Source of the DNA: a virus
Strand: one strand, 5' to 3'
Virus record (IMG/VR): IMGVR_UViG_3300007516_001784
Location: 1-64,000 of that record
Length of the DNA stretch: 64,000 nucleotides
Shown: piece after piece, positions 2,234 through 4,089 of the stretch
Layout of the letters: every line of letters begins with the position of its first letter
How positions within the stretch are numbered: position 1 is the first letter of the stretch
Notes under the pieces: generated by a model
What the model saw: the letters and a program-made list of their open reading frames with translations, nothing else
What the model was told of the DNA's origin: nothing
The model's database searches: none
Position numbers and translations under genes: made by a program

Positions 2234-2742
2234 GTGCTTAGCTTCCTCTGAACGTTTTGCAACTGTCGAATCAATGCTTGTACCTTATGCTTACTTCGTC
2301 CAGTCACAACAAGAAACCAGCGAGTTGAGGATTCGCGTTCCTCGATTTTCCAAACGCCAAGGAAAAAAGGGATCCCATATTTGACAATTGTGCCAGTAAA
2401 GGGGTCACTCAAAATAACGTCCATGTCGTCATAGCCGGTCACTGTCATGTAATGGCCGATGCCGTCTTTCATAACGACATGGACGATTGGCAGTTGGTGT
2501 TTCGCCAACGCTTTTTTAAGCTTATTGAAATTCCCATGATCACTTTGTTTAAAATCAAACCCAAGGATCTTCAAGCCATGCTCAAAATCACTCATGCCGT
2601 TCTCGGTAGCACCAAGAACAACAGCCAGTTCACGATCGGTAAAATCCAAGCCAAACTGATAGTACAAAACCGTCCTAAGGCTCGCTGGGCCGCAACTCCA
2701 GCGAGTCTGTTGCTTGAATGGTTTTACATCATGAATGATCAT
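2230..2742 (-). CDS. C39-like papain-fold cysteine peptidase
   Basis: The N-terminal motif QQTRWSCGPASL carries a likely oxyanion Gln (Q11 or Q12) and nucleophile Cys17. GHYMTVTGYDD supplies His97, and the following LSDPF supplies Asp113. These are the Gln-Cys-His-Asp elements of C39-type (bacteriocin leader) peptidases. The length of 170 residues fits a lone peptidase domain without transporter parts. There is no signal peptide, so it probably acts in the host cytoplasm. The gene overlaps the release factor by 4 bases (ATGA), so the two are made together. The substrate is unknown; a host protein or a phage protein needing maturation are both possible. Confidence 0.75.
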   Translation of the reverse strand: MIIHDVKPFKQQTRWSCGPASLRTVLYYQFGLDFTDRELAVVLGATENGMSDFEHGLKILGFDFKQSDHGNFNKLKKALAKHQLPIVHVVMKDGIGHYMTVTGYDDMDVILSDPFTGTIVKYGIPFFLGVWKIEERESSTRWFLVVTGRSKHKVQALIRQLQNVQRKLST

Positions 2743-3434
2743 TTCAGCAATTCAAACCTGCCCCTACCAATTACATCTTCAACCCTATTAGTCTTAACAC
2801 CTGTTCTGTGATCCACGGCTCGCTGGTCGATGAAGTTATAAGTTCTAATCTTTTCTGTGCGACCACCGTTGCCAACCTGTTGTCGCTTAGCGGCTGCGGC
2901 CTTAGCGTTTATCCCCGCCACTTTTTCTTTTTCAAGTCTTGCTGCGAGAACCTTGAGTGCGAGCCGCTTATTGGAGTGCTGCTCTCTCCCATCAATAGTT
3001 ACGCTAATACCAGTCGGATCGTGTCGGGCAACAACACAAGATTCTGTTTTATTGCGATGTTGACCGCCAGGACCGCTTCCCCTCTTAGTCATTATAGTCA
3101 CTTCGCTCATATTGAGCTTAGTGACTAAAGCTTCCGAAGCCAGTTGCGTCACAGCGACCGTTACGATTGAGGTCTGTCGCCTCCCCCGTTTTTCCGTAGG
3201 TGGGACTCGCTGTACGCAATGTTTGCCAGCTTCGGCAGCAAAGAGACTGGCTGCGTTCGTTCCGCTAAAAACCAGCGATATCTTCCCTAAACTCCAATCT
3301 TCGTGTTCAAGCTTGCAACCATTGCTGTTTGCATATTTAACATAGGCCAATCCAAGATTCTCGCAGAACAACTTAGAGTCTGTTCCGCCCTCACCGGCCT
3401 GGATCTCAAAGACAGACGGCGTGCGATCCGTCAA
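2739..3434 (-). CDS. Short class-I peptide chain release factor
   Basis: The protein releases nascent peptides from the ribosome. GSGPGGQHRNKTES carries the catalytic GGQ at 123-125 (numbering from the TTG at 3434). EIQAGEGGTDS at 10-20 is the usual start of release-factor domain 2. RVPPTEKRGRRQTS at 76-89 contains a P-x-T tripeptide (78-80), the RF1-type stop-codon selector, rather than the SPF of RF2. The whole N-terminal domain 1 is missing (231 residues against about 360). This frame has no ATG start: it opens with TTG or is entered by a +1 frameshift from an ATG at 3450 (see 3401-3450). A sigma70-like promoter lies just upstream. It may serve phage termination or rescue of damaged ribosomes. 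Confidence 0.88.
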   Translation of the reverse strand: MTDRTPSVFEIQAGEGGTDSKLFCENLGLAYVKYANSNGCKLEHEDWSLGKISLVFSGTNAASLFAAEAGKHCVQRVPPTEKRGRRQTSIVTVAVTQLASEALVTKLNMSEVTIMTKRGSGPGGQHRNKTESCVVARHDPTGISVTIDGREQHSNKRLALKVLAARLEKEKVAGINAKAAAAKRQQVGNGGRTEKIRTYNFIDQRAVDHRTGVKTNRVEDVIGRGRFELLK

Positions 3435-3450
3435 CGTATGAAGTTTTCAT
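3401..3450 (-). other. Candidate RF2-type +1 programmed frameshift leader
   Basis: On the minus strand an ATG at 3450-3448 opens a 14-codon frame that ends CTT (3411-3409) then TGA (3408-3406), followed by G. Shifting +1 at CTT gives GAG-ATC-CAG, which is exactly where release-factor homology (EIQAGEGG) begins. The ATG has GAG eight bases upstream as a ribosome-binding site, while the release-factor frame has only TTG. Bacterial prfB uses CUU-UGA-C in the same arrangement. Differences are a G after the stop and no AGGGGG element three bases before CTT. The shifted product would be 236 residues. Confidence 0.5.
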
Positions 3451-3488
3451 AATGTTATCTCACTAGTATGTAGCCATCGTGGCAATGT

Positions 3489-3517
3489 ATAGTAACACAT
3501 AAAGCGGCCACGGTCAA
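3489..3517 (-). promoter_or_regulatory. Sigma70-like promoter for the release-factor gene
   Basis: On the minus strand TTGACC (3517-3512) is followed after exactly 17 bases by TACTAT (3494-3489). These match the consensus at 5 of 6 and 4 of 6 positions. The predicted start near 3482 gives a leader of about 32 bases to the ATG at 3450. It occupies the 75-base gap after the barrel gene. Confidence 0.55.
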
Positions 3518-3525
3518 TAGATTTT

Positions 3526-4089
3526 TCAGAATGAATAGCCAAGCGTGAACATGAATAGGTTGCTATCCGTGGGCGGTTCGTTAATCCAGATGTCTTCGTC
3601 TTCGCCCCAGAACGTACGTCGATACATGATACCACACGTATAGTGTTCGTCAAACAGAAAATTCAGTCCCGTTTGTGCATAAGGCGAGTACGCCACGCTA
3701 CGATCGGAAAACTCTCCCGCATACGTAACGTCTACTTTTGTTTTAAGGGCGGTAGCAGAGAGCCCACCACTTACGTACACTTGAAAAGAATCGCCAAGCA
3801 TGAAGTTCTTTCGCATACCGATAGAAAGTTCTTCAATGCGTGACTTGGTGTAATTCACGGGACGATTCACGTACTGATCGTCCCGTGAAGTGTCGTCACT
3901 GACAATCAGTGAGAATTCTGGTCCGAATCCTTCTTGTCCAGCTAGGTGAGCCTGGATACCGACCGCAACTTGTTGGTCCGTTTGTTCCCAACTTTCACGA
4001 CTATCAAAGTCACGTACACCGGCCATCAAATCAACGTGAGGTTGATTAATGCTACAGGAAGCGAAAAGAAGAGCAAGTAGAAATTTCAT
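3526..4089 (-). CDS. Outer-membrane beta-barrel-like protein
   Basis: The 187-residue product begins with a short signal, MKFLLALLFASCS, with a lipobox-like FASC. The rest shows alternating strands with frequent Tyr, Phe and Gly and ends in FMFTLGYSF. A terminal Phe after alternating hydrophobic residues is the usual signal for outer-membrane barrel insertion. The size fits an 8-strand barrel of the OmpA/OmpW kind. This implies a Gram-negative host. A phage might use such a protein to alter the surface or block superinfection; that is inference. The start overlaps the end of the SLOG gene by 4 bases. Confidence 0.6.
   Translation of the reverse strand: MKFLLALLFASCSINQPHVDLMAGVRDFDSRESWEQTDQQVAVGIQAHLAGQEGFGPEFSLIVSDDTSRDDQYVNRPVNYTKSRIEELSIGMRKNFMLGDSFQVYVSGGLSATALKTKVDVTYAGEFSDRSVAYSPYAQTGLNFLFDEHYTCGIMYRRTFWGEDEDIWINEPPTDSNLFMFTLGYSF

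Follow-up and report, generated by a model that had tools for sequence, protein, structure and literature searches.

To our knowledge, recoding control of bacterial-type release factors is known for RF2 only. The bacterial RF2 gene, prfB, uses a +1 programmed frameshift at a site in which an SD-like stretch is followed by CUU-UGA-C (PMC12421855, PMC3711429). In all genomes surveyed in 2025, the stop codon at the prfB site was one that RF2 can read, and no programmed frameshift was found in prfA (PMC12421855). According to a 2016 review, an in-frame UGA after which the gene continues in the same frame had not been found in RF2 genes, and the UAG counterpart in RF1 genes was also unknown (PMC5009743). 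Among viruses, the class-I release factor gene of Mimivirus and Megavirus (R726/mg280) has a +1 shift at CUU-UAG-C or CUU-UAA-C together with a readthrough stop, as shown in E. coli (PMC3521657). Release factors 1 and 2 are listed among the genes of huge phages in a paper that does not mention frameshifting (PMC7162821).

Here we analyse a stretch of viral DNA of 64,000 nucleotides (the window), which is part of a virus record of 91,428 bases (IMG/VR IMGVR_UViG_3300007516_001784). We suggest that it encodes an RF1-type phage release factor lacking domain 1, that the full-length product is made via a +1 frameshift, and that the stop codon at the shift site serves as a gate when termination is slow; we put the probability of this reading at about 0.8. 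A leader frame of 14 codons on the minus strand (3406..3450), MKTSYVDGSHAVCL, opens with ATG and ends at CTT TGA. Its letters from 3450 to 3406 are ATG AAA ACT TCA TAC GTT GAC GGA TCG CAC GCC GTC TGT CTT TGA. The release factor body lies in the +1 frame (2739..3407, minus strand). It starts with GAG at 3407-3405, stays open until TGA at 2741-2739, and provides 222 residues after the shift, comprising RF1 domains 2-4 with a PPT selector and GGQ. The proposed shift site is TGT CTT TGA G (3405..3414, minus strand), with CTT at 3411-3409 and TGA at 3408-3406. A preliminary description of this DNA had reported such a 14-codon frame with release factor homology from GAG in the +1 frame, and had stated that the homologous frame has no ATG and only a TTG; we confirm both points. 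This TTG (3432..3434, minus strand) is the sole start-type codon in the release factor frame before the conserved part, and we do not favour it as the start.

The initiation signals proposed earlier are less clear. The ribosome-binding site at the ATG at 3450 is present and weak (dG -3.5), since an equally good one is found at 22% of random places; the TTG at 3434 has no SD sequence (+0.4). The sigma70-like promoter exists as a match to 9 of 12 positions (TTGACC-17-TACTAT, 3489..3517, minus strand). It is a candidate only, because such sites are not above chance, with 2 found in the scan vs 1.8 expected. At the shift site, the window resembles prfB in having CTT before an early in-frame stop and the body in the +1 frame. 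It does not have the SD-like AGGGGG three bases 5' of CTT, where GCCGTCTGT precedes CTT, nor the C after the stop, where G is found; both departures had been pointed out beforehand. A small inverted repeat, GACGG-N8-CCGTC, was found by a terminator scan just 5' of TGT CTT TGA (3415..3432, minus strand) and is a possible 5' stimulator of the shift. As a measure of chance, the window contains 1285 short ATG frames of 5-40 codons, of which 27 (2.1%) end at CTT-stop. At this rate the window taken alone is modest evidence, and it is the conservation in relatives that carries the case. A tRNA search of the window, as a source of a suppressor tRNA, found none, and stop usage in its 54 ORFs (TGA 28, TAA 20, TAG 6) does not suggest UGA avoidance.

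Two neighbouring genes may be mentioned here. The stop codon of the release factor gene overlaps the ATG of a downstream C39-peptidase-like gene (ATGA, 2739-2742, minus strand), and due to this overlap the two genes may be translationally coupled. Directly upstream is a gene for an outer-membrane beta-barrel-like protein (3526-4089, minus strand), an unusual cargo for a phage.

By sequence, the nearest family of the window protein is RF1. Its Pfam PCRF match is restricted to profile positions 98-194, and because the match begins only at position 98, domain 1 of RF1 is missing. In line with this, the scores are below the cut-offs for a full-length RF1 with domain 1 (185 vs 423 bits for prfA, 196 vs 400 for PRK00591). 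The RF-1 domain PF00472 is matched with an E value of 7.5e-24, and GGQ is present. PPT aligns with PVT of Thermus thermophilus RF1, a PxT selector, and GGQ, the Gln before PPT and the Thr after it all align with RF1 as well. A PxT selector assigns recognition of UAA and UAG, and RF1 does not read UGA. We therefore agree with the preliminary description that the RF1-like selector makes self-sensing at UGA unexpected. The Ile-His of the RF1 motif GRIHTS is Arg-Gln in the window protein, so its stop specificity could differ from that of RF1. For the 222 residues that follow the shift, AlphaFold predicts the RF1 fold (pLDDT 87), with a TM score of 0.83 and 41% identity to ribosome-bound RF1, and the nearest structures are RF1. 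The first strand in the model is formed by residues 2-4 after the shift, i.e., the predicted fold begins at the shift point. The product is expected to be a class-I release factor of RF1 type with domain 1 absent, and release at UAA and UAG is predicted from its sequence. We also considered PrfH/RFH and rejected it, since the score is 73 bits against a cut-off of 167 and RtcB is absent from the window's record.

What we call the window layout is a body with no internal stop and a short ATG leader whose stop, passed by a +1 shift, lies immediately ahead of the motif E-I-Q/R-x-G-x-G-G. Besides the window and its twin contig L002, this layout is present in at least 18 diverged viral genes, among them five added by a further scan (L335, L341, L346, L348, L397). 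Their identity to the window is 40-52%, and the five added genes share 42-51% identity with L191. All their leaders end at NTT-stop; 21 of the 22 shift sites in these genes are CTT-stop and one is GTT (L195), while TGT stands before the slippery codon in 13 of the 22 (TGT-CTT-stop), the same as in the window. When all stops able to feed the release factor frame are counted, with CTT not required, 12/18 are CTT vs 2.1% expected from the window's short frames, for which a P value is a guide only because the sequences are related. In 17 of the 18 genes, the release factor frame contains no ATG, GTG or TTG from its last stop up to the shift site. The exception is L335, with one TTG, and a few genes carry a start-type codon after the shift site, inside the body. 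The leader ATG of these relatives mostly has a strong SD. L397 is nearest to the window in form, with the leader MKTNRRCL, then CTT TGA G, then ESLVVEIQFGEGG. The preliminary description had looked to relatives for a kept CTTTGA with an upstream ATG or, against its proposal, for a clean in-frame start, and on both counts the relatives support an RF2-type +1 programmed frameshift. At the level of sequence, the layout, its conservation in diverged phages and the relatives' want of another start are established.

These comparisons bear on whether translation simply starts at the TTG at 3434, so that the ATG leader and CTT-TGA would be incidental. The TTG is there and the frame is open from it, and TTT GAG encodes Phe-Glu of the conserved hydrophobic-Glu-Ile stretch, so that V-F-E-I and V-C-L-E-I fit the family equally well. 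However, this TTG has no SD, and TGT-CTT-stop in the window is the relatives' consensus. In the relatives of this layout, a start codon before the site is lacking, and an ATG with an SD opens a leader that terminates at CTT-stop. We consider a TTG start improbable. It predicts the N-terminal peptide MTDRTPSVFEIQ / MTDRTPSVFEIQAGEGGTDSK, and a shift predicts ...GSHAVCLEIQAGEGGTDSK with a product that begins MKTSYVDG from the leader. A one-base shift early in a gene also resembles an indel, as would arise by sequencing or assembly error or in a decayed gene. Though L002 adds no evidence over the leader, where it is identical to the window, it has the same site and an open body at 97% identity. 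Furthermore, the layout is kept in diverged phages, family layouts occur in isolate genomes and GGQ is retained in all 201 family genes listed. Error or decay is thus extremely improbable, and we return to the frameshift as the preferred reading.

In our tree, a quick one in which many forks are weak, the window is found in a group of 13, comprising 12 window-layout genes and L193 (SH-aLRT 98). Since L027, which also has the layout, is placed elsewhere, more than one origin of the layout is possible. Other members of the window's group are interrupted differently, by an in-frame TGA within the leader (L192) or, within the body, by an in-frame TAG (L193) or a CTT-TGA (L350); only L336 is uninterrupted. 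The points against a +1 shift in the window are L336, the lack of an SD-like stimulator, G after TGA, the weak leader SD and the TTG in the release factor frame. From their sequences, L185 (huge phage LR756511), L194, L197 and L210 seem to require two +1 shifts in a row; the double site of L185 is CTT TAA C, 15 codons, then CTT TGA C. The peptides encoded between the two shifts resemble each other in L185 and L194, and a codon-position test of this frame gave 6, 4 and 6 differences at positions 1, 2 and 3.

The wider family was collected by scans of IMG/VR, GTDB genomes and a phage collection, followed by two-part HMM classification. It has at least 201 distinct genes, or 139 after clustering at 80% identity; the loci are related, and because each scan gave its best 80 loci, these counts are not prevalences. 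The body changes frame by +1 in 90 of the 201 listed genes, and every one of the 90 switches at CTT-stop, with TGA at 68 sites, TAG at 20 and TAA at 2. An SD-like stretch stands before the site in 75 of the 90. The base after the stop is C at 64 of these sites and G, the base found in the window, at about 19-20. The sites are mostly 31 codons after the EIR motif. Another 86 genes have the same frame on either side of in-frame stops, and 11 of these have two. The commonest in-frame stop is GGY-TGA at the place of a conserved RF1 Trp, as judged against the ordinary RF1 genes L006 and L016. The other 25 listed genes are these two, six with a plain ATG (L103, L116, L228, L318, L320, L321), one that is unclear (L115) and 16 of the window's layout or group.

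Several features of these interruptions are worth recording. The genes with two in-frame stops are from large phages (L034, L187, L188, L209, L211, L215, L216, L219, L221, L222, L231), and the stops, which lie near codons 36-41 and 49, are often TGA CTA/CTG or TAG CTG. GGY-TGA at the RF1 Trp position is found in many of L032-L104 and in L113, L114 and L117; its carriers are a large freshwater phage clade and sequences of Gemmobacter, Thalassospira and Sphingomonas. It resembles UGA readthrough in which no RNA structure is conserved: with 23 ungapped sequences, RNAalifold found no SECIS-like or other consensus structure 3' of the in-frame UGA. Chromosomal members with CTT-TGA or CTT-TAG +1 sites (L108, L111, L112, L121, L123, L127-L132) belong to Myxococcota and Actinomycetota, several of them in isolates. 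Across the family, isolates carrying chromosomal members include Nannocystis, Minicystis, Gemmobacter and Thalassospira. Since isolate chromosomes carry the family layouts, these are not metagenome assembly errors. The neighbours of the chromosomal copies mostly have no Pfam match.

Other explanations were examined across the family and rejected. Reinitiation at the site would call for a start in the second frame, and an ATG lies near the stop in that frame in only 1/86 genes with in-frame stops and 11/90 frame-changed genes, which speaks against it; any start-type codon is there in 6/86 and 35/90. A change of genetic code, with UGA as sense throughout, does not agree with the terminase and helicase genes found in carriers, which have no inner stops. 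Association with RtcB, as for PrfH, is not seen, RtcB being found in 1 of 29 carrier records.

By analogy with prfB, we infer how the site would work. Ribosomes would start at the ATG at 3450 and proceed through the 14-codon leader. If termination at UGA is slow, peptidyl-tRNA-Leu would slip from CUU to UUU, and the ribosomes would go on at GAG 3407 into the release factor. The stop would thus be a gate, with the factor produced during slow termination at this stop. Slippage itself, its efficiency and its purpose are inferred. Because the factor has RF1-type recognition residues, UGA sites would report mainly the activity of host RF2, as the preliminary description had proposed; reading of UGA would then fall to host RF2, and both host RF1 and the product would read UAG.

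What the gate senses is less certain. The mix of stops in the family is compatible with sensing of the host, with a fixed low yield and with a factor able to read every stop, and across the family genes no link was seen between the recognition motif and the stop codon of the site. We tentatively favour a gate on host termination. If instead the frameshift serves classical autoregulation, the product would terminate at its own site, reading UGA or all stops, as RF2 does in prfB. The mixed stops would suit a factor that reads all three, as would the recognition loop altered at RF1 Ile-His in the window's group; yet the product retains P-P-T, Gln and Thr of RF1, the nearest structures are RF1 and RF1 does not read UGA. 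We regard autoregulation as rather unlikely. The frameshift could also be real and sense nothing, the stop holding the yield of a factor harmful in excess at a fixed low level. Single and double +1 shifts and one or two in-frame stops share only a low expected yield, and the type of stop codon varies. A weak start or promoter would suffice for this purpose, however, and the CTT-stop and SD-like elements have been retained as in prfB, which suggests that the speed of termination matters. We consider a fixed yield unlikely. Returning to a gate on host termination, it is possible, if short of an even chance, that there is a large family of RF1-type phage release factors gated by recoding of one or two stops, which senses host termination (RF2 at UGA, RF1 at UAG) or the state of the ribosomal A site, with the phage factor made when host termination fails. 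The modes of recoding in such a family, proposed equally tentatively, would be a +1 shift, either single or twice in succession, or readthrough of in-frame stops, one or two per gene, and chromosomal members would occur in Myxococcota, Actinomycetota and Alphaproteobacteria.

In nearly all listed relatives, a stop has to be slipped past or read through, which suggests a widespread and apparently undescribed form of control. RF1-type phage genes with CTT-TGA, CTT-TAG, CTT-TAA, in-frame stops and two stops per gene are a natural experiment on the stop-gating of release factor genes, and the family makes it testable who competes at the stop. It also suggests that phages may read the state of translation termination in the host. 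Ordinary gene calling splits such interrupted genes or overlooks them.

We found no report of recoding in this RF1-type phage family in the open-access literature (subscription papers and preprints were outside the scope), and its control by recoding is likely to be new. RFH/PrfH is similar in being a class-I release factor with GGQ and without domain 1 (PMC1586002, PMC6514570), but the window protein reaches only 73 of the 167 bits and has an RF1-type PxT loop. It shares domains 2-4, the PxT selector, GGQ and the fold (TM 0.83) with prfA, which differs in having domain 1 and no programmed frameshift (PMC12421855). The closest viral parallel is the Mimivirus/Megavirus gene, a viral release factor gene with a +1 shift and readthrough; its product, however, belongs to the eukaryotic/archaeal eRF1 family of amoeba viruses and has no common ancestry with the bacterial-type factor of the window. 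With prfB, the window shares a release factor gene with a +1 shift at CTT-TGA near the start, and the SD-like stretch three bases upstream and the C after the stop are shared by the wider family only. The window differs from prfB in its RF1-type product without domain 1 and in its site without these two elements, whereas relatives differ in their use of TAG, TAA, double sites or in-frame stops. Finally, the selector is SPF in prfB and PPT in the window, so that reading of UGA by the gene's own product, as in prfB, is not expected from the sequence.
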